Assembly (NCBI GenBank): GCA_003138365.1
Contig: PLFY01000159.1
Span: 2,914-53,159, forward strand
Reading direction: 5' to 3'
Length of the DNA stretch: 50,246 nucleotides
Source: Acidobacteriaceae bacterium
Lineage (GTDB): Bacteria; Acidobacteriota; Terriglobia; Terriglobales; Acidobacteriaceae
This document shows positions 22,908 through 31,624 of this stretch, piece after piece. The position numbers were made by a program, and so were the translations under genes. Below the pieces are notes generated by a model. It ran no database searches, was not told the DNA's origin, and saw only the letters and a list, made by a program, of their open reading frames with translations. Positions within the stretch are counted from its first letter, which is position 1. Every line of letters begins with the position of its first letter.

Positions 22908-23834
22908 ATGTCTACGCACCTTGACACAATTCTGGCCATGACGCGATCCACGGTGGATGCGGCGAAGGCGCGTGTGCCTGTGGCCGAGTTGGAGCGGCGG
23001 GCGGCAGCGCATCAGCCTCGCGGCTGGGCAGCGGCCTTGCGGCGGCAGGCGGCGGTCAGGCCGGCGGTGATTGCGGAGATCAAAAAGGCTTCGCCCTCCA
23101 AGGGGCTGATTCGCGAGGATTTTGACGTGGCCTGGCTGGCCGGCCGCTATCAGGCGGGAGGAGCGGCAGCGCTTTCGGTGCTCACCGATGAGCCGTATTT
23201 CCAAGGCAGCCTGCGCAATCTGGAACTGGCTTCGGCGGCAGTCGCGCTGCCCTGCCTGCGCAAGGATTTCACGGTGGACGAGTACCAGATCGTGGAGGCT
23301 CGCGCTCACCAGGGGGATGCGATCTTGCTGATCGCCGCTGCGCTGACTGATGGCGAACTCGGGCGCTTTGCCCGCGTGGCTCGCGGGCTTGAGATGGATG
23401 TGCTGGTCGAAGTACACACGGCAGGGGAGCTTGACCGGGTGCTGGACACGCTTGGGGAGAGCGGGGCGGATGCGATCGGTGTGAACAATCGCGATTTGAA
23501 GACCTTTGAAGTCAGGCTGGAAACCTCGCTTGAGTTGGCGGGGCGGATACCGAGCGGCGTGGTTCGAGTGGCCGAGAGCGGCATTTCGACGGCGGAGGAC
23601 ATCGCGCGGCTGCGGGAGGCGGGGTTTGACGCCTTCCTGATTGGAGAATGCCTGATGCGGCAAGCAGACCCCGGCGCGGCGCTGGCAGGGTTGCTGACGA
23701 GCGCCAGTTGGAAGCCATCCTTTCATGAGCTTCCTGCATCTATGCCGAACATCGGCTTGGAATCGAGTTTTGAGCAGAGACCTGAACCAGGCCGTGGGCA
23801 CTCGATGGATGACGAGCCTTGGACCGAGCCATGA
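22908..23834 (+). CDS. trpC: Indole-3-glycerol phosphate synthase
   Basis: Converts CdRP to indole-3-glycerol phosphate in tryptophan synthesis. The (beta/alpha)8 core shows the expected catalytic blocks: 'AEIKKASPSKG' (residues 56-66), 'CLRKDFTVDEYQI' (Lys119), 'VLVEVH' (Glu168), 'GVNNRDL' (Asn194) and 'AESGI' (Glu223, Ser224). The family core ends near residue 264; this protein continues to 308 with a hydrophilic tail not typical of IGPS. The ATG at 22908 matches the family start ('LDTILA'). Its stop overlaps trpF in ATGA. No ribosome-binding site is visible. Confidence 0.95.
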   Translation: MSTHLDTILAMTRSTVDAAKARVPVAELERRAAAHQPRGWAAALRRQAAVRPAVIAEIKKASPSKGLIREDFDVAWLAGRYQAGGAAALSVLTDEPYFQGSLRNLELASAAVALPCLRKDFTVDEYQIVEARAHQGDAILLIAAALTDGELGRFARVARGLEMDVLVEVHTAGELDRVLDTLGESGADAIGVNNRDLKTFEVRLETSLELAGRIPSGVVRVAESGISTAEDIARLREAGFDAFLIGECLMRQADPGAALAGLLTSASWKPSFHELPASMPNIGLESSFEQRPEPGRGHSMDDEPWTEP

Positions 23835-24502
23835 GCCTCTGGATCAAGATCTGCGGCAACACCTCGCTGGAGGACACGCGGCTGGCCGTGAAGGCTGGCG
23901 CCGACGCGGTGGGGTTTGTGTTTGCGCCCAGTCCGCGGCAGGTGACCGTGTCAGAGGCGGCAGCCATTGTGGCGCATTTGGCTGCGCCGGTGGAGAAGAT
24001 CGGCGTCTTTGTGGATGCTGTGCTGGACGAAATCTACTCGGCCGTTCGGGTGTGCGGACTGACGGGCGTGCAACTGCACTCCGAGGCTGGGCCGGAGTTG
24101 CCTGCAAAACTGCGCGCACTGCTGGGGCCGCAGTTGAGTATCCTGCGCGTGGTGCACTTTGACGCCGGAGCTGCGCAACAGATGGCGAATCAGATTGCCG
24201 AACACGGCCGCAACCCGAACGTGGATGCGGTGCTGGTGGATTCGCGCACGGCCACGGCAGCGGGCGGCACTGGCGTGACGTTCGACTGGGCAGAGGCAGG
24301 GAAGACCGTCTTCGGCGATGCTGGAAAGCTCAAGCTGATTGTGGCGGGCGGGTTGAACCCGGCGAATGTGGCCGAAGCGATTGCAACGCTGCGGCCGTGG
24401 GGAGTGGATGTGGTCTCGGGCGTGGAAGCTGCGCCGGGGCGCAAGGATGCGGAGAAGGTGCGTGAGTTTGTGACTCGCGCGCGGGCGGCGGATCGGGAGT
24501 AG
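23831..24502 (+). CDS. trpF: Phosphoribosylanthranilate isomerase
   Basis: Catalyses the Amadori rearrangement of PRA to CdRP, the step before TrpC. The 223-residue TIM-barrel protein begins 'MSLWIKICGNT' with the catalytic Cys at position 8, and has the catalytic Asp in 'VLVDSRT' followed by 'GGTGVTFDW' and the phosphate-binding 'VAGGLNPANV' and 'GVDVVSGVE'. The ATG at 23831 overlaps the trpC stop, so a TTG 12 nt upstream is unlikely to be used. trpB and trpA would be expected next; instead about 3.6 kb of accessory DNA follows. Confidence 0.95.
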   Translation: MSLWIKICGNTSLEDTRLAVKAGADAVGFVFAPSPRQVTVSEAAAIVAHLAAPVEKIGVFVDAVLDEIYSAVRVCGLTGVQLHSEAGPELPAKLRALLGPQLSILRVVHFDAGAAQQMANQIAEHGRNPNVDAVLVDSRTATAAGGTGVTFDWAEAGKTVFGDAGKLKLIVAGGLNPANVAEAIATLRPWGVDVVSGVEAAPGRKDAEKVREFVTRARAADRE

Positions 24503-24689
24503 GGTTGCGGAATTGGGATTCAATGGAAGTCGATCCTGCTCTGGCGTGCGGGATGCGAGGTCGAAACTGCCGCAATTCTGATGCAGAATGAGGCGTTTCT
24601 TCGGCTTTTGTTTGATGTAAAACAGGCCTAACATATTTTTGTTTCATTGTGTTACGCGAAAAAGTTGGGAGGGGTGGGCATGCGTTTTT

Positions 24690-24710
24690 TGCGTCGGCTT
24701 GACGCATTTT
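24690..24710 (+). terminator. Candidate intrinsic terminator after trpCF
   Basis: TGCGTC-GGCTT-GACGCA (24690-24706) forms a 6-bp stem followed directly by TTTT. It sits about 190 nt past the trpF stop and before the accessory block. Confidence 0.5.
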
Positions 24711-24775
24711 CCATCGCAAGAGCCAAGAACTGACCCCCGCCCAAACGAGCAAAAGCCGCTCGCTGGCGACCACGC

Positions 24776-24837
24776 TGGCTCCTCGATTCGCGTTCTATGA
24801 ACCATTGTGCGCCGGGCGACGCATAAATTCTGCAAAA
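24776..24837 (+). repeat. Dispersed ~62-bp repeat, copy 2
   Basis: Same-orientation copy of the element at 5887-5948; 39 of 44 bases match in the core (24794-24837). It lies in the trpF-higB gap, about 40 bp before the stem-loop repeat at 24880. Confidence 0.8.
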
Positions 24838-24879
24838 GGCATTGGGGGTCAAACTCCCAACGGCTTGGAGAGCCAGGTT

Positions 24880-24914
24880 CCACATCTCAAAATCGAGATG
24901 TGGGGCGCCCGGCT
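24880..24914 (+). repeat. Stem-loop direct repeat left of the HigBA module
   Basis: CCACATCTC-AAAATC-GAGATGTGG forms a perfect 9-bp stem with a 6-nt loop. With the next dozen bases (GGCGCCCGGCT) it forms a 35-bp unit that recurs at 25712-25746; 30 of 35 positions agree. The two copies flank the toxin-antitoxin genes. Confidence 0.85.
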
Positions 24915-24957
24915 AGATTGCCGCTGTAATCCCTATTGCGCATAATGCTCTTTATGG

Positions 24958-24963
24958 CATAAT
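24958..24963 (+). promoter_or_regulatory. -10 box close to the HigB-like start
   Basis: CATAAT ends 6 nt before the ATG at 24970. If used, transcription would begin at or next to the start codon. A ribosome-binding site is absent. Confidence 0.35.
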
Positions 24964-24969
24964 TGTTCC

Positions 24970-25317
24970 ATGAGTTGGTCCGCCTACTTCCATCCGAGGT
25001 TCGAGGCCGAGGTCAATGAGCTGTCGGATGCGGTGCAGGATGGACTGGCCGCCGCCCTCGCGCCACTTCGGAAGTTCGGGCCATCTTTGGGACGGCCCGA
25101 TGTAGACACGCTGAATGGATCGAAGTTCGCGAACATGAAGGAACTTCGCTTCAGGGCGGATGGGGGAGTCTGGCGGGTCGCCTTCGCCTTTAACCCGCGG
25201 CGAAATGCAATTCTGCTCGTGGCCGCCGACAAATCGGGCGTGAGCGAAGCGAAGTTTTATAGGCGGCTTATCGACAAGGCCGACAGGCGGTACAAGGAAC
25301 ACCTCGACGATCTTTAA
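24970..25317 (+). CDS. HigB/RelE-type toxin (phage Gp49-like)
   Basis: A 115-residue RelE-superfamily toxin of the Gp49-like/HigB branch, expected to be a ribosome-dependent mRNA interferase. Family blocks are 'DTLNGSKFANMKELRF', 'GGVWRVAFAFNPRRNAILLV' and 'DKSGVSEAKFYRRLI'. The toxin-first gene order and the XRE antitoxin 18 nt downstream are typical of higBA operons. Copies of a 35-bp stem-loop repeat lie on both sides of the pair. No ribosome-binding site is seen; a -10-like CATAAT is very close to the ATG. Confidence 0.88.
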   Translation: MSWSAYFHPRFEAEVNELSDAVQDGLAAALAPLRKFGPSLGRPDVDTLNGSKFANMKELRFRADGGVWRVAFAFNPRRNAILLVAADKSGVSEAKFYRRLIDKADRRYKEHLDDL

Positions 25318-25335
25318 TCAAGAGGAGCGGCTACC

Positions 25336-25695
25336 ATGCGTGGAATGATTTCTGTTGATGACTGGATTGCCACTTTGCCAATAGAGCGGCAAAAGGCTAT
25401 TGAAGCGAGGGGAAAAGAGCTGATCGCCAAGGTGCAGCGGCGCATGACCCTGGCGGAGCTGCGCAAGGGGCGCAAGATTAGCCAGGCAACGGTTGCGGAG
25501 GCTCTGGGAATCGGCCAGATGCAGATTTCGCGGCTGGAGAAGCGTAAGGACCCGCGCCTGTCTACGATGGCGCGCACCGTGGCGGCGATGGGCGGGCAGC
25601 TGACGATGATTGCAACCTTCCCGGACCAGGAGCCGGTGGTGCTCATCCCTTTGCAGCTTGCTGAGAATGCCGCGCGCAGCAAGAAAAGAGCCTGA
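25336..25695 (+). CDS. HigA-type XRE antitoxin
   Basis: A 119-residue antitoxin with a central helix-turn-helix ('LAELRKGRKISQATVAEALG', then 'GQMQISRLEKRKD') that neutralises the toxin and represses the operon. The N-terminal 35 residues form an amphipathic helical region; the C-terminus is short and basic ('AARSKKRA'). AGAGGAG (25321-25327) is 8 nt before the ATG. It is 18 nt downstream of the toxin gene. Confidence 0.88.
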   Translation: MRGMISVDDWIATLPIERQKAIEARGKELIAKVQRRMTLAELRKGRKISQATVAEALGIGQMQISRLEKRKDPRLSTMARTVAAMGGQLTMIATFPDQEPVVLIPLQLAENAARSKKRA

Positions 25696-25711
25696 CTGGG
25701 AGCTTGCTATC

Positions 25712-25746
25712 CCACATCTCAAAATCGAGATGCAGGGCACCCAGCA
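25712..25746 (+). repeat. Stem-loop direct repeat right of the HigBA module
   Basis: Second copy of the 35-bp unit at 24880-24914. The left arm and loop are identical; the right arm has two changes (GAGATGCAG), so the stem is weakened. It begins 17 bp after the antitoxin stop. Confidence 0.85.
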
Positions 25747-25782
25747 GGTCATCTTTACCTCCCCGTGAGAGGGGCAAACACT

Positions 25783-26637
25783 ATGAATCAGATTGGTTTT
25801 GACAAAAGATTTAGCTTACTCGCTCAAGAAGCACATCTGGCCAAGAATACGCTTTTGTCAGGATTTGACCTTCTTTTAAAAGCCAATTTCTTTCAAGATA
25901 AAGACGGTTACTTCTATTCAGCCTTCTTCCATATCTCTATTGGCGTGGAAAGAATCTTGAAGTTAGCGGTCGTCACACACTATATGCTCGCGAATAACTA
26001 CCAGACACCAACTATCAAACAGTTGAAAAAGGACTTTGGACACGACATCAGGACGCTATACGGCGAGTGCCAGAAATTGATGAGTCAATATCGCCGCAAT
26101 CCTTCGACACTGACAGAAAGAACGAAGTCCGATGATGCCTTGATCGATTTCTTCACTGACTACGGGGTTGGATCACGATACTTCAATCTTAATGAAGTTT
26201 GTGAAGCCAAGATGGAAAGAGGTCCTTTGAGCAAGTGGCTGGATATTTCCATAGCAGTCTATGAGGAGTACACGCCCCATCAAGTGAGGCAGAGATCAGC
26301 ACTCAACCTGATGTACAAGATGGACAGGGAAGGCAGGCCAAACCAATTCACGATGGACATCAACGAAGAAGGGCACCCCATGACGGTATTTGACTGTCTT
26401 CATCGTCAGTATGTCATTGAGAAGAGCGCTCCGCTTATCATCTGGCGGATTATCGAAAATCTTCAGCCAATCCATTTCCTACTCGAAGGAATGGCCAATA
26501 GAGCCGCAGACTATGAGACAGCAAATAATATTTCTTCTATGGTAATTCCACACTACGAGGATTTCTTCTATTTTCTTTTGGCTGACAAGGTAACCATCAA
26601 GAGAAGGAAGAAGTGGCTAGATATATTCAACAGTTAG
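25783..26637 (+). CDS. Unknown AT-rich protein, HEPN-like N-terminal region
   Basis: A 284-residue protein I cannot assign to a named family. The N-terminal helices 'YFYSAFFHISIGVERILKLA' and 'LKKDFGHDIRTLYGECQKL' resemble all-helical HEPN-like domains in which an Arg/His pair may act, but a canonical RX4-6H motif is not obvious, so nuclease activity is not claimed. The rest is mostly helical with aromatic-rich segments ('HYEDFFYFLL') and a basic C-terminus ('KRRKKWLDIF'). The DNA is clearly AT-richer than its neighbours, suggesting transfer. AGAGGGG (25768-25774) supports the ATG at 25783. The position between toxin-antitoxin modules suggests a defence or abortive-infection role, by inference only. 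Confidence 0.7.
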   Translation: MNQIGFDKRFSLLAQEAHLAKNTLLSGFDLLLKANFFQDKDGYFYSAFFHISIGVERILKLAVVTHYMLANNYQTPTIKQLKKDFGHDIRTLYGECQKLMSQYRRNPSTLTERTKSDDALIDFFTDYGVGSRYFNLNEVCEAKMERGPLSKWLDISIAVYEEYTPHQVRQRSALNLMYKMDREGRPNQFTMDINEEGHPMTVFDCLHRQYVIEKSAPLIIWRIIENLQPIHFLLEGMANRAADYETANNISSMVIPHYEDFFYFLLADKVTIKRRKKWLDIFNS

Positions 26638-26721
26638 TGGCGGATGGCCAAGTCGGAAGCGTACCCAATCGTTTGACAAGGATGGAAGATGCGGGCTTCC
26701 CGCCCCCCTGGCACACGAGAG

Positions 26722-26746
26722 GGCTTCCTATTTTTTTGTGGAAGCC
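26722..26746 (+). other. Stem-loop just before the trpB stump
   Basis: GGCTTCC (26722-26728) pairs with GGAAGCC (26740-26746) over an 11-nt T-rich loop. It lies immediately before the AGGAGG of the trpB remnant. It may be a leftover of an old control region or a terminator for the upstream gene. Confidence 0.35.
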
Positions 26747-26749
26747 AGC

Positions 26750-26933
26750 AGGAGGCCCGATGGCATCGATCATTCTTCCAGCTTCCAGCAAGGCAAATGG
26801 ATTCATCTGAATCGCGCTCCGGCCGCTTCGGCATTTATGGCGGGCGGTATGTGCCCAGGCGCTGATGGCGGCGCTGGTGGAGTTGGAGCATGAGTACGAC
26901 CTGGCCCGGGTGGATGCGGCGTTTCATGCCGAA
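26750..26933 (+). pseudogene. 5' stump of a second trpB gene
   Basis: The stretch matches the beginning of the intact trpB (28080-28263) from the ribosome-binding site onward: AGGAGGCCCG then ATGGCATCG. A 22-bp block at 26834-26855 is identical to 28160-28181. Translated in pieces it gives 'ESRSGRFGIYGGRYVP' and, after a 1-base deletion near 26857, '[20 protein letters not shown]', both clear TrpB N-terminal sequence. A stop (TGA at 26808-26810) and frame changes make it non-functional. It ends after about 60 codons in AT-rich DNA. Many differences from the intact copy are synonymous, so it diverged while still a working gene. Confidence 0.85.
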
Positions 26934-27018
26934 TAATTATTTCGATTGTTGCGTTTATTTCGTATATATGTGATTATGGCTGGGTACACAAAGGCTCGTT
27001 GCCTACTTTGGAGGACTT

Positions 27019-27477
27019 ATGACCACATCCATGCTCGATCCGATTTCGATTCCGAATTCTCAGCAGGAACAGGTCCAGGAACTCCAGAAGTTGATGCAGA
27101 GGGAAGGAAAAGCCTCTTTGGTTGGCAGGGGGGGAGAACAGGCATTGGAGCTGCCCGATGTTGTCTACTCGCTCCTGCTGAGGATTCTCCAGAATATGCA
27201 GGAAGGCAAGGCTATCTCAATCGTTCCTGTGATGCAGGATCTGACCACGCAAGAGGCGGCGAACTTCCTGGGCGTTTCCCGGCCCTTCTTCGTCAAACTG
27301 CTGGAGACGGGCAAGATGCACTATCACATGACGGGAACGCATCGGCGGGTCTACCTGAAGGATTTGATGGACTACAGGCAGCACCGGGACCAGGACAAGA
27401 TTGATGCGATCAATCGGATTGCTCAATTTGAAGAGGATGCAGGATTGTACGATAAGGTGTTGCTTCCGAACGGATAA
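27019..27477 (+). CDS. Excisionase-type HTH protein, likely antitoxin
   Basis: A 152-residue protein whose middle carries a MerR/excisionase-type helix-turn-helix: 'LTTQEAANFLGVSRPFFVKLL' region (about residues 74-95) followed by the wing 'MTGTHRRVYLKDLMDY'. Such DNA-binding proteins are known as antitoxins of PIN toxins. GGAGG (27010-27014) lies 4 nt before the ATG. Its stop overlaps the PIN gene start (TAATG), indicating coupled expression. The upstream 80 bp are AT-rich and may hold the promoter, though boxes cannot be assigned firmly. Confidence 0.82.
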   Translation: MTTSMLDPISIPNSQQEQVQELQKLMQREGKASLVGRGGEQALELPDVVYSLLLRILQNMQEGKAISIVPVMQDLTTQEAANFLGVSRPFFVKLLETGKMHYHMTGTHRRVYLKDLMDYRQHRDQDKIDAINRIAQFEEDAGLYDKVLLPNG

Positions 27478-28022
27478 TGCCTGGCTACCAAGTCATTCTG
27501 GATGCTTGCGTTCTTGTAAATGCCGCGCTTCGCGATACTCTGTTGCGCATCGCGGAGCCGCCTCGTCTTTACCTGCCGCGCTGGTCGGAAGAGATTATGG
27601 CTGAGACCAAGCGAACACTCGAAACCAGGCTGGGAGTGACGCAAGAACAGACCGCGCACCTGGTCGGCGAGCTGCGAAAGCACTTTGAGGATGCCTGGGT
27701 AGAAGGCTACGAGTCGCTCATCCCAATCATGGCGAATCATCCCAAGGACCGCCATGTTCTTGCCGCCGCTGTGCGCTGCGGCGCACAGACTATCGTGACG
27801 CTCAATCTGAAAGATTTCCCGGAAGCTGCACTATCGCCATGGGACGTGGTGGCGCAAAGCCCCGATGAGTTCCTGGTTCATCAGTACCACCTTGCGCCGG
27901 AAGTCGTGGCTCTAAAACTGCATGAACAGTCTGCAAGGCATGGAGGCCTGGAGCGGCTGCTTTCCATACACAACAAGATTGCCCCTGAATTTGTTGCTCT
28001 GATCCGCGAACGCTCGGTGTGA
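27477..28022 (+). CDS. PIN-domain toxin
   Basis: A 181-residue PIN-like RNase. The acidic positions are present: 'VILDACVLVNA' (Asp9), 'EEIMAETKRTL', 'NHPKDRHVLAAAV' and 'TLNLKDFP'. It is longer than simple VapC proteins because of a helical C-terminal extension ('ALKLHEQSARHGGLERLL'). Paired by TAATG overlap with the HTH protein upstream, it forms a complete toxin-antitoxin module that ends 70 bp before trpB. Confidence 0.85.
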   Translation: MPGYQVILDACVLVNAALRDTLLRIAEPPRLYLPRWSEEIMAETKRTLETRLGVTQEQTAHLVGELRKHFEDAWVEGYESLIPIMANHPKDRHVLAAAVRCGAQTIVTLNLKDFPEAALSPWDVVAQSPDEFLVHQYHLAPEVVALKLHEQSARHGGLERLLSIHNKIAPEFVALIRERSV

Positions 28023-28042
28023 TGGCTCCGCCGCAGCCCTAG

Positions 28043-28085
28043 TACACTGAAAAGTTCCCCTATTCTTGGGCAGTTGAGCGGGAGG
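28043..28085 (+). promoter_or_regulatory. Candidate promoter and Shine-Dalgarno of trpB
   Basis: A -10-like TACACT (28043-28048) and a strong GGGAGG (28080-28085), 7 nt before the trpB ATG, lie in the short gap after the PIN gene. A -35 box is not evident. A local promoter would be needed because accessory genes now separate trpB from trpCF. Confidence 0.35.
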
Positions 28086-28092
28086 CCCCAAA

Positions 28093-29319
28093 ATGGCATC
28101 GGTGATTCTACCATCAGGACATCTGGCACCATCCGAGTCGCGGCCGGGGCGGTTTGGCGTTTATGGCGGGCGGTATGTGCCGGAGACGCTGATGGCGGCG
28201 CTCGTCGAGCTGGAGCGCGAGTACGACGCCGCGAAAAATGATGCGGCGTTTCAGGCGGAGCTGGCGGGGCTGCTGAAGGATTATGCGGGGCGGCCTACGC
28301 CGCTCTACTTTGCGAAACGGCTGACGGAGCAACTGGGCGGGGCGAAGATTTATCTGAAACGCGAAGACCTGCTGCATACCGGGGCGCACAAGATCAACAA
28401 CGCGCTGGGTCAGGGGTTGCTGGCCAGGCGGATGGGCAAGAAGCGCGTCATAGCGGAGACTGGCGCGGGGCAACATGGGGTGGCGACGGCGACGGTGTGC
28501 GCGCTGCTCGGCCTGGAATGCGTGGTCTACATGGGCGATGTCGACATGGAGCGGCAGGAGCTGAACGTGCTGCGCATGCGGCTGCTTGGCGCTGAGGTGC
28601 GGGGGGTTTCGGCGGGGTCAAAGACGCTGAAGGACGCCATCAGCGAGGCGATGCGGGACTGGGTGACCAACGTCCGGACTACCTATTATCTGTTGGGCAG
28701 CGCGCTGGGGGCGCACCCTTATCCGACCATGGTGCGGGACTTCCATCGCTGCATCAGCCGCGAGATGAAGGAACAGATTCTTGAGAAAGAGGGCCGGCTG
28801 CCTACCGCCGTGATCGCCTGCGTGGGCGGCGGGTCGAATGCAATTGGCGCGTTCTATGAATTCATTCCCGATACTCAAGTGAGGCTGATCGGCGTGGAGG
28901 CAGGCGGGCGCGGGACGGCGCTGGGCGAGCACGCGGCACGGTTCTCGGGCGGTGCGCCGGGGGTGTTGCAGGGGACATATTCCTACGTGCTGCAGGATGA
29001 GGATGGGCAGATTGCGCTGACGCACTCTGTCTCTGCCGGGCTGGATTATGCGTCGATTGGGCCAGAGCACGCGGCGCTGCACGACTCGGGGAGGGCGGAG
29101 TACACCTCGCAGGACGATGCGGCGGCGCTGGATGCGGTGGTGAGGCTGGCGCGGACGGAAGGGATACTGCCGGCGCTGGAAAGCGCACACGCGGTGGCCG
29201 AGTGTTTGCGCCTTGCTCCGACGATGGCGGCCCATGACATACTGGTGGTGAATCTTTCTGGACGCGGCGACAAGGATATGGGGATTTTGGCGCGCGAGTT
29301 GAATATCCAGGGAGCGTGA
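28093..29319 (+). CDS. trpB: Tryptophan synthase beta subunit
   Basis: PLP enzyme that condenses indole and serine to tryptophan. The 408-residue product has '[16 protein letters not shown]' near the N-terminus, the cofactor lysine in '[15 protein letters not shown]', '[13 protein letters not shown]', the phosphate-binding glycine loop '[10 protein letters not shown]', and '[11 protein letters not shown]'. It is the common TrpB1 type. The stop overlaps an in-frame GTG that is an alternative start for trpA. A decayed second copy of its 5' end lies 1.3 kb upstream (26750-26933). Confidence 0.97.
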
Positions 29320-29348
29320 CCGTAGAATCCCGGAACCCTGAGACTTGG

Positions 29349-30131
29349 ATGGCGATTCTTTTTGAGCGCAAACCCGGACTGGTCGTTTATTTGACGGCTG
29401 GTGACCCGAGCCTTGAGGTCACGGGCGCGATTGCGCTTGAGGCCATCGATGCGGGCGCGGATGTGATTGAGCTGGGCGTGCCGTTCAGCGATCCGCTGGC
29501 GGATGGGCCGGTGATTCAGAGAGCCATGGAACGGGCATTGGCCAGGGGGACGCGGCTCAAGGACGTGCTGGCATTGGCTGCGGAGATTCGCGCGGCGCGG
29601 CCGGCGGCGGGGCTGGTGATCTTCAGCTATCTGAATCCAATATTGCGGTACGGCATGCACAAGTTTGCCGATGAGGCAGCGGCGGCCGGCGTGGACGGAG
29701 TGCTGGTGCTCGACCTGATTGTGGAAGAGGCGGGTGAGTACCTGGCCGAGATGGAGCGAGTGAAGCTGGCGCCGATTTTTCTGGCTGCGCCGACGAGCCC
29801 CGATGAGAGGCTTGAGGCGATCGCTACTCATTCAAAGGGATTTGTTTATGCGATCTCGCGGGTTGGGATCACCGGCACGCAGCAGAGCTTGACGGCCGAG
29901 GCCGCTTCGCTGGTCGCTCGGATCCGGCGATGGACCCAGCTGCCGGTAGCCGTGGGGTTCGGCATCAGTAACGCGGAACACGTGGCCCAGGTGGCGGAAT
30001 TCGCGGATGCCGCGGCGATCGGCAGCGCGATTGTGGAGTTGATTGAGAAGTCGACTCCCGAGGCAGCGCCCGGCGCAGTGGCTCGATTTATCAAGGGCCT
30101 GCACCTGCCTGAGGCGGCGCTGGCCCGGTAA
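29349..30131 (+). CDS. trpA: Tryptophan synthase alpha subunit
   Basis: Cleaves indole-3-glycerol phosphate and passes indole to TrpB. The 260-residue TIM barrel shows 'LVVYLTAGDPSLE', the catalytic Glu and Asp in 'IELGVPFSDPLADGP', 'FVYAISRVGITGTQ' and the phosphate-binding 'VGFGISNAEH'. The ATG at 29349 is preferred because family similarity begins there; a GTG at 29316 in GTGA overlap with the trpB stop is the alternative and would add 11 residues. A small hairpin (30144-30160, GCGGC/GCCGC) follows the stop. Confidence 0.95.
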   Translation: MAILFERKPGLVVYLTAGDPSLEVTGAIALEAIDAGADVIELGVPFSDPLADGPVIQRAMERALARGTRLKDVLALAAEIRAARPAAGLVIFSYLNPILRYGMHKFADEAAAAGVDGVLVLDLIVEEAGEYLAEMERVKLAPIFLAAPTSPDERLEAIATHSKGFVYAISRVGITGTQQSLTAEAASLVARIRRWTQLPVAVGFGISNAEHVAQVAEFADAAAIGSAIVELIEKSTPEAAPGAVARFIKGLHLPEAALAR

Positions 30132-30257: not shown

Positions 30258-30611
30258 ATGACGCTGGAAGAATTGCGAGACCAAATTGATGTTCTGGACC
30301 GGCAGCTTGTGGAGTTGCTGAGCGAGCGGGCACGGGCTGCGCAGCGGATCGGTCACCTGAAGGTTGCTACGTCGCTGCCGGTCTACGAGCCGGCGCGCGA
30401 GAAGGTGATCTACGCCAACATTCGCGCGGCCAACAAGGGTCCATTGCCGGACATCGAACTGACGCATATCTACGAGCGCATCATCGACGTGATGCGGGCC
30501 CTGCAGAGGGATGAGTTGGCATCGGAGAGGAACGCCCAGGCGCACGCGCTGGGCCACGGCACTGGCGCAGAAACACAAGCAGACGCGCCCGAGACAGGGA
30601 ACAAGCGATGA
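30258..30611 (+). CDS. Chorismate mutase (AroQ type)
   Basis: Converts chorismate to prephenate for phenylalanine and tyrosine. The 117-residue protein has the all-helical AroQ pattern: 'LEELRDQIDVLDRQLVELLSE' helix with the active-site Arg, 'AQRIGHLK' with the conserved Lys, and 'EPAREKVIYANI'. The last 25 residues are a hydrophilic tail. GAGG lies 4 nt before the ATG. Its stop overlaps aroF in ATGA. Linked AroQ and DAHP synthase often form a complex in which the mutase helps regulate DAHP synthase; here they are separate but coupled genes. Confidence 0.9.
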   Translation: MTLEELRDQIDVLDRQLVELLSERARAAQRIGHLKVATSLPVYEPAREKVIYANIRAANKGPLPDIELTHIYERIIDVMRALQRDELASERNAQAHALGHGTGAETQADAPETGNKR

Positions 30612-31624
30612 TTGTAGCCATGCAGGAGAGGGCCACGGAAGACCAGATCGATGCAGTGATCGATGCGATGGTGGAATCCGGGGTCAATGTTCATCGAACT
30701 ACGGGCGCAACCCAGACCATCCTGGCCGGAGTGGGACCCACCGCCGGCGTGGAGCTGAGAAGGTTTGAGCTGCTGTCCGGCGTGCTCTCTGTACACAGAA
30801 TCACTTCACCTTACAAGCTGGCCGGGCGCGCATTTCGTCCGGAAGGCACGGTGGTGGAGTTTGCGAACGGAGCCAAGATAGGCGGCGAGCAGGTTGGGAT
30901 CATCGCCGGGCCGTGCGCCATTGAGAATCGCGAACAGATCTTTGCAACTGCCGCGTGCGTGAAGGCTGCGGGAGGCGGTTTTTTGCGCGGAGGCGCCTTC
31001 AAGCCGCGCAGTTCGCCGTATGCATTTCAGGGCTTGGGAATTCCTGGGCTGCAACTGATGCACGAGGCCGCCGAGGCAAACGGCCTGCTCACGGTGAGCG
31101 AGGTCATGGAGATTTCGCAGATCGAGGCCATGCTGCCTTATACCGACTGCTTCCAGGTGGGCGCGCGCAACATGCAGAACTTCAACCTGCTGCGCGAGTT
31201 GGGCCAGGTGCGCAAGCCGGTTCTGTTGAAGCGCGGCATTGCGGCCACCATCGAGGAGTTGCTGCTTTCGAGCGAGTACATCATGTCCGGCGGCAACTAC
31301 GATGTGATCCTGTGCGAACGCGGCATTCGCACCTATGAGACCTCGACGCGGAACACGATGGATATCGCGGCGATTCCGGTGGTGAAGAAGCTGTCGCACC
31401 TGCCCATCGTGGCCGACCCGTCGCATGGCACGGGCCGTCGCGACATGGTTCCCGCGATGGCAAAGGCCGCGGTAGCAGCGGGAGCGGACGCAATTCTGGT
31501 GGAGATTCACCCCAACGCGGACAAGGCTGCCTCCGACGCGGCGCAGACCCTGTATCTCGATCAGTTTGAGAAACTGGTTGGGGAGCTGAGAGTGATTGCC
31601 GCGGCAGTGGGACGGAGTTTGTAG
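30608..31624 (+). CDS. aroF: DAHP synthase, type I-beta
   Basis: First enzyme of the shikimate pathway, condensing PEP and erythrose 4-phosphate. The 338-residue product has a roughly 75-residue N-terminal ferredoxin-like regulatory domain ('MIVAMQERATEDQIDAVI', 'TILAGVGPT') and a catalytic barrel with 'IAGPCAIENREQI', 'GGAFKPRSSPYAFQGLG', 'VGARNMQNFNLL', 'LLKRGI' and 'DPSHGTGRRDMV'. This layout and length match the Thermotoga-type enzyme, which is feedback-controlled through the N-terminal domain. It is the last gene of the trpBA-aroQ-aroF run, joined to the mutase by an ATGA overlap. Confidence 0.95.
   Translation: MIVAMQERATEDQIDAVIDAMVESGVNVHRTTGATQTILAGVGPTAGVELRRFELLSGVLSVHRITSPYKLAGRAFRPEGTVVEFANGAKIGGEQVGIIAGPCAIENREQIFATAACVKAAGGGFLRGGAFKPRSSPYAFQGLGIPGLQLMHEAAEANGLLTVSEVMEISQIEAMLPYTDCFQVGARNMQNFNLLRELGQVRKPVLLKRGIAATIEELLLSSEYIMSGGNYDVILCERGIRTYETSTRNTMDIAAIPVVKKLSHLPIVADPSHGTGRRDMVPAMAKAAVAAGADAILVEIHPNADKAASDAAQTLYLDQFEKLVGELRVIAAAVGRSL

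Follow-up and report, generated by a model that had tools for sequence, protein, structure and literature searches.

The window analysed here is the whole stretch of 50,246 nucleotides at G000:C19:2914-53159, part of the 4.78-Mb draft genome of an Acidobacteriaceae bacterium. All features discussed lie on its forward strand. First comes a tryptophan unit formed by trpC (22908-23834) and trpF (23849-24502, PRAI), followed by a Gp49/RelE and HTH_3 gene pair, a gene of 284 aa and a broken 5' end of trpB, hereafter the stump. After the stump follow an HTH_17 and PIN_3 gene pair, an intact trpB (28093..29319; TIGR00263, 617 bits), trpA (29316..30131) and two further genes, which we name aroQ (30258-30611) and aroG (30608-31624). 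The last three genes, trpA, aroQ and aroG, are found together in all seven relatives whose downstream DNA was read. Besides the stump, the genome contains one whole trpB and one distant TrpB-like gene (36% identity).

When the 5' end of the intact trpB is compared with its own upstream DNA by blastn, the stump is the sole match, with an E-value of 2e-26. A frameshifted trpB start at 26750-26933, as proposed by an earlier reading of the sequence only, is therefore present, and the 22 bases at 26834-26855 are exactly those at 28160-28181, as that reading had noted. The coding part of the stump (26760..26933) is 174 bases long and corresponds to codons 1-56 of the intact gene, fewer than the 60 or so first estimated; a duplication and a deletion add a net six bases. 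Upstream of the coding part the likeness to the trpB leader continues through the ribosome binding site AGGAGG (26750..26755), at the same place as in relatives, to the position of the promoter element. Here the MAFFT alignment, and inspection by eye, show a decayed GCACACG for GTACACT at 26711..26717, 49 nt before the ATG. The stump is thus a trpB 5' end, comprising promoter region, ribosome site and 56 codons. It is probably functionless now, because its frame is broken and the promoter element has lost two conserved bases.

Two indels disrupt the stump when it is placed in register with the relative G003. The first is a 7-bp tandem duplication, TTCCAGC-TTCCAGC (26776..26789), identified from the sequence and the register against G003, which shifts the frame into a TGA at 26808-26810. 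The second is a 1-bp deletion at 26855..26856, which restores the frame and lies near two changes at positions that are invariant in 64 of 64 relatives. From there the frame is open until a TAA at 26934-26936, formed by the adjoining sequence, so that the last part of the stump is in the original frame (net shift +6) up to residue 56 of the intact-gene numbering. The stop codon and the 1-base deletion described earlier both exist; the stop, however, is a product of the 7-bp duplication and not an independent nonsense mutation.

Directly behind the stump lies a gene for an HTH_17/excisionase-family DNA-binding protein (27019..27477; PF12728, TIGR01764), a probable antitoxin, followed by a gene for a PIN_3-domain protein (27477..28022), a probable toxin. 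The PIN protein matches PF13470 with 27.9 bits, just above the cut-off of 27, and scores 104.3 bits against NF046100, the NCBIfam model of the RSP_2648 PIN family, which is below the cut-off of 170 for membership. The HTH gene precedes the PIN gene directly and the stop and start overlap at 27477, an arrangement like that of VapBC; the same order is found in nine of nine other loci inspected. Judged by domains and gene order, the region 27019-28022 is a probable VapBC-like toxin-antitoxin pair. An iteron-like putative operator of the module is found at 26938..26970; in G015 and G111, similar iterons can be made out by eye ahead of the HTH gene. The genome has another HTH/PIN pair (L178, G000:C81), whose PIN protein is 39% identical and whose PIN match contains a stop codon. 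The operator begins 4 nt behind the last base of the stump, and the PIN gene stops 19 nt before the promoter element of trpB; these tight edges hint that the edges of the module had a part in the event.

The other pair between trpF and the stump is HigBA-like, with a Gp49/RelE-type toxin (24970..25317; PF05973) and an HTH_3 antitoxin (25336..25695; PF01381), and a Gp49/HTH_3 pair occupies the same spacer in G022, G099 and G103. It is flanked by a 34-bp palindromic direct repeat (24880-24913 and 25712-25745, 88% alike), whose core is found at four places in the genome at up to three mismatches, both flanking copies included. The repeat is possibly the means by which the pair moves.

The 284-aa gene (25783..26637) belongs to no known family and looks like a cross-phylum transfer. 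Its GC content is 43%, against 64-66% for trpC, trpF, trpB and trpA, and among the 80 genus genomes it is present in G000 only. Its relatives are found at ten proteobacterial loci in nine genomes, with 52-81% identity (three are partial), and the protein is 77% identical to one from Nitrosomonas oligotropha. Further relatives occur in 138 plasmid records, of which 120 are conjugative and mostly enterobacterial; the best ten of the 138 are about 33% identical. Neither PADLOC nor a lenient Pfam search gave a match for this gene.

The intact trpB is preceded by a strongly conserved promoter-like element, GTACACT, at 28042..28048. The motif GTA[CA]ACT, picked after inspecting the leaders, occurs no more than 80 nt ahead of trpB in 58 of the 64 other genus loci, compared with 3 of 1932 control windows taken from further upstream. 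It starts 45-59 nt before the ATG in 57 of the 58 loci and 70 nt before it in the remaining one, and is absent from all five order-level loci. Sigma-70 and terminator scans of 24400-28200 gave nothing above shuffled sequences. The genes trpB-trpA-aroQ-aroG seem to be a transcription unit of their own with a putative promoter.

Comparison of the DNA between trpF and trpB, which had been suggested as a check, shows that the gap is variable across the genus. Of the 66 further genus genomes for which a trpB locus was available, 43 carry trpF on the same contig, upstream of trpB, and the gap measures 76-311 bp in 15 of these 43 and at least 420 bp in 28 (at least 600 bp in 26 of them). In G052, the sister genome, it is 165 bp. 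In another thirteen of the 66, G009 among them, the 4.4-6.5 kb of upstream sequence covered contain no trpF on the same strand. The other ten have too little sequence or no trpB start. The inserts differ: 13 of 19 hand-picked insert proteins, two of them from G027 where trpF is unlinked, matched a Pfam family at E 0.001 (one below its cut-off). Families include an AAA protein, a PfkB kinase, a Panacea antitoxin, a methyltransferase, a dehydrogenase, a GGDEF protein, a ferritin, a PIN-like protein and an acyltransferase. The trpF-trpB gap is thus an insertion-prone spacer across the genus, and insertions are probably tolerated because trpB has its own putative promoter. The earlier picture of an invaded trp operon is accordingly doubtful, as trpB-trpA-aroQ-aroG is apparently a separate unit and the gap a variable spacer. 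Among the papers listed in literature searches, which left subscription journals mostly outside, none is named as dealing with a trpF-trpB insertion site in such bacteria. Two other arrangements were seen: in G009 (L052) trpF and trpC are inverted upstream of trpB, and G035 has two separate trpC-trpF copies (L193, L206) in one genome.

The 64 other genus loci that include a trpB start, ten of them with less than 2 kb upstream, gave no stump-like copy ahead of trpB. Besides the window, this search gave only 20 matches, each of 51 bases or less and with an E-value of 2e-5 or weaker. An earlier search upstream of trpB in 53 genus and five order-level loci likewise gave no comparable stump; the longest match among the five order-level loci is 67 bases (E 4e-5). 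The region 26640-28092 matched 59 of 80 genus genomes, and no second trpB 5' copy was found among the 80, a weak absence given that about four candidates were scored per genome. The second matches in this search are pieces of leader or PIN, or short (30 bases in G055, 23 in G107, 34 in G011), and the one in G007 consists of adjoining pieces of one frame-broken trpB. Several loci contain trpB in two or three pieces, L080 (G028), L084 (G007), L081 (G017), L087 (G036) and L088 (G027), which are either assembly errors or real breaks; in G028 there are 368 bases between two matched pieces where 90 are expected. These counts bear on an ancient tandem duplication of trpB, broken in this lineage and lost elsewhere, which the sequence-only reading had offered as its alternative. 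Such a duplication would account for both copies diverging as working genes, but no second 5' copy was found upstream of trpB in the 64 loci and many independent losses would be required, which makes it very improbable.

To describe the divergence of the stump from the intact gene we used 46 codons, excluding three at the deletion as well as the variable ones at the N-terminus. Over these there are 17.3 synonymous and 11.7 replacement differences, with a dS of 0.80 and a dN/dS of 0.16. Most differences had been called silent; synonymous ones do prevail, although replacements are a good part of the total, and the rates of silent and replacement change are far from equal. For comparison, the intact trpB and that of G052 differ by eight synonymous and two replacement changes over the same codons (dS 0.27).

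The stump has on average 12.05 replacement differences to 64 relatives. Working genes, by the same measure, range from 7.6 to 36.7 with a median of 10.5, and 18 of 64 reach the level of the stump; some of the highest values probably stem from genes that are broken or in poor register. Under a simple decay model in which half of the changes are transitions, randomly decaying the intact gene until it is equally distant yields 28.1 (sd 2.2) replacement differences, and starting from G052 as a stand-in ancestor yields 23.0 (sd 2.0); in both cases 0 of 400 simulations are as low as the stump. Counting replacement changes against the starting sequence alone, 11.7 are observed and 21.0 simulated from the intact gene (0 of 400), while the result from G052 is weaker, 11.2 against 16.2 (sd 1.9), 5 of 400. 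At the ten sites where the intact gene differs from G052, the stump has the G052 base at eight, the intact base at one and neither at one.

A local duplicate that decayed in place is ruled out by the 0 of 400 simulations, by the sharing of only one of ten private changes of the intact gene, by the dN/dS of 0.16 and by the quartet site patterns below. The stump gathered most of its divergence while it was still a working gene and not yet cut, which upholds the sequence-only reading on this point. The same result weighs on the possibility that the HTH/PIN module inserted at codon 56 of trpB with a long target duplication, from promoter to codon 56. Both edges of the module are tight (4 nt to the operator, 19 nt from the PIN stop), and restriction-modification genes are reported (PMC3031569) to insert with long and variable target duplications. 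However, the two copies would initially have been identical and decay in place is rejected; the sole rescue is an extra event in which the intact copy was later replaced by the allele of a relative. We consider this explanation improbable.

Which of the two trpB copies is native was judged from gene trees and from dS. In the tree of the trpB body the sister is G052 (support 98/90), and likewise in the trpF tree (98/95). The rpoB tree of 20 genomes including G000, in which G052 is represented by 2.5 kb only and from which G024 and G022 are absent as they gave no rpoB, also has G052 as sister of G000 (84/95). The trpA tree gives G024 as sister (100/99) and the trpC tree G011 (97/92). Between G000 and G052, dS is 0.65 for trpC, 0.54 for trpF, 0.44 for trpB, 0.59 for trpA, 0.32 for aroQ and 0.52 for aroG, so the value for trpB lies within the range of 0.32-0.65 of its five neighbours. 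Because of these trees and the neighbour-like dS, nothing marks the intact trpB as having come recently from a sampled lineage; it is the stump that stands out. It had been proposed that the complete trpB came in from outside and that the stump is the end of the native gene; with the intact gene following the species tree (trpB, trpF, rpoB) and a dS like that of its neighbours, this direction is unsupported. An unsampled close relative is a possible donor of the intact gene.

In one form of that proposal, the stump is the end of the resident trpB, and a donor segment of HTH/PIN, promoter and trpB was joined illegitimately at codon 56 on the left and homologously in or beyond trpB on the right. 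A single event would then yield the stump, the insert and the whole gene, and such a donor is plausible as genes upstream of promoter and trpB are common in the genus. Gene pieces left behind by such a route have also been proposed for Vibrio effector arrays (PMC5361080). Against this, the intact trpB looks vertical by trees and dS, no stump-like ancestry is seen in the trpB body or trpA, and the other genus trpB loci read, some of them with little upstream sequence, gave no HTH/PIN match. The resident allele itself would need to be a foreign replacement. We regard this course of events as possible, though rather unlikely.

To place the stump, we summed quartet site patterns over 63 fourth taxa; these sums are descriptive, as shared history is counted many times. 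The patterns grouping the stump with the intact gene number 19, with G052 162 and with the fourth taxon 395. When control species are put in the place of the stump, the same patterns number 19, 162 and 456 for G044, 49, 79 and 328 for G051, and 49, 92 and 285 for G011, while G003 gives 118, 85 and 148 and G024 gives 170, 52 and 118. Since the stump gives patterns like those of an ordinary outside species, it has the behaviour expected of an allele that lies outside the G000-G052 pair. That it split from the intact allele before G000 and G052 separated is well supported but not formally proven, because there are so few bases: about 140-170 are alignable, and the formal tree tests use 138-171 columns.

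The tree of relatives that had been called for was built, and it does not settle the sister of the stump. In this 5' end tree, poorly resolved with 12 of 63 inner branches well supported, a set of the intact gene, G052, G024, G003 and G103 without the stump has support 93/89. The AU test gives p 0.267 for the stump with the intact gene, 0.371 for the stump with G003 and 0.258 for all three together, and rejects none. On 138 columns and 26 rows the values are 0.151 for the stump with the intact gene and 0.416 for the stump with G003, neither rejected. Grouping the stump with both the intact gene and G052 on the 138 columns has p-AU 0.018, but KH (0.096) and SH (0.287) do not reject it. The low p-AU partly concerns the pairing of the intact gene with G052, because the free tree on these columns pairs the intact gene with G024.

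The stump, G003 and the intact trpB have in common an N-terminal extension of three codons, which is missing in G052. This shared extension conflicts with a clean outside position of the stump. The stump is identical to G003 over CAAATGGATTCATC, and in the search of 80 genomes G003 is the closest genus match of the stump region (78%, query span 199 bases, E 2e-39). G051 is second (85% over 129 bases) and the own intact gene ranks far lower (73%). When the extension is left out, G051, G044 and G052 are closest by count. A search of 200 genomes of the family matched 88, the best outside the genus being 79% over 115 bases. G003 and G051 score best as kin, and neither resolves as sister in the trees; the stump is an odd piece nearest to these two. 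No donor genome was found among the 80 genus and 200 family genomes searched.

The explanation we favour, and hold to be somewhat more likely than not, is a xenologous origin of the stump: the 5' end of a trpB exchanged within the genus stayed behind, next to two toxin-antitoxin-like modules and the 284-aa gene. The history of the remnant differs from that of the resident gene according to site patterns and simulations, although the formal tree tests do not reject joining the stump with the intact gene. The trpB allele would have been functional while it evolved in a different lineage, most likely one of the same genus, and its truncation would be rather recent. DNA of this related species may have recombined at the spacer between trpC-trpF and the unit of promoter, trpB, trpA, aroQ and aroG, leaving the foreign 5' end in front of the resident unit. 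The stump could mark the broken end of the incoming piece, joined by homology at one end and illegitimately at the other, or a redundant second trpB may later have been lost through a deletion extending to the HTH/PIN module edge. No homology is seen by eye at the join of stump and HTH module, and no homologous junction was located. Under our preferred reading the nearly flush join with the operator is a coincidence.

An assembly artefact joining DNA of two strains might be suspected in a draft of 230 contigs with 2.86% contamination. Yet the join shows no misleading shared sequence by eye and lies inside an 87.8-kb contig, and if two trpB copies had been collapsed, a single hybrid gene would be expected in place of a stump plus a whole gene; an artefact is therefore the least probable of the explanations weighed here.

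More broadly, the trpB promoter and 5' end might be a recurrent recombination anchor in the genus for small selfish or defence-like units, by one-ended homology, tolerated as trpB keeps its own promoter, and sometimes dragging in the 5' end of a donor trpB. If so, the spacer would record which lineages exchanged DNA. So far one stump is known among the window and 64 other genus loci, and we think such a general role unlikely.

The stump is a real recombination scar, probably of exchange between related species, of a known and ordinary kind, and not a new kind of system. What is new here is the test that the pseudogene fragment is no decayed duplicate, and the corrected direction compared with the sequence-only reading; the stump also points to a genus-wide insertion-prone spacer between two tryptophan units. 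Several bacteria are described as joining DNA illegitimately with the help of homology at one side (PMC3240628), and for the effector-immunity arrays of the Vibrio T6SS a homology-facilitated route in which parts of older genes stay behind has been proposed (PMC5361080). As in these two accounts, part of a gene lies beside a functional one; the joining of one end by homology and of the other illegitimately is proposed there and inferred here. In contrast to them, we deal with a biosynthesis gene and a single scar, and the whole copy looks native. The locus also resembles the target duplication by restriction-modification genes (PMC3031569), with a small toxin-antitoxin-like unit between two copies of a target segment; here, however, the copies do not come from one recent duplicate. 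Finally, split trp operons are known, and splits described in PMC2395257 are of the form EGDC plus FBA. The trp genes of the window are likewise in more than one unit, but in contrast to those splits the break lies between trpF and trpB, and trpBA is joined to aroQ-aroG.
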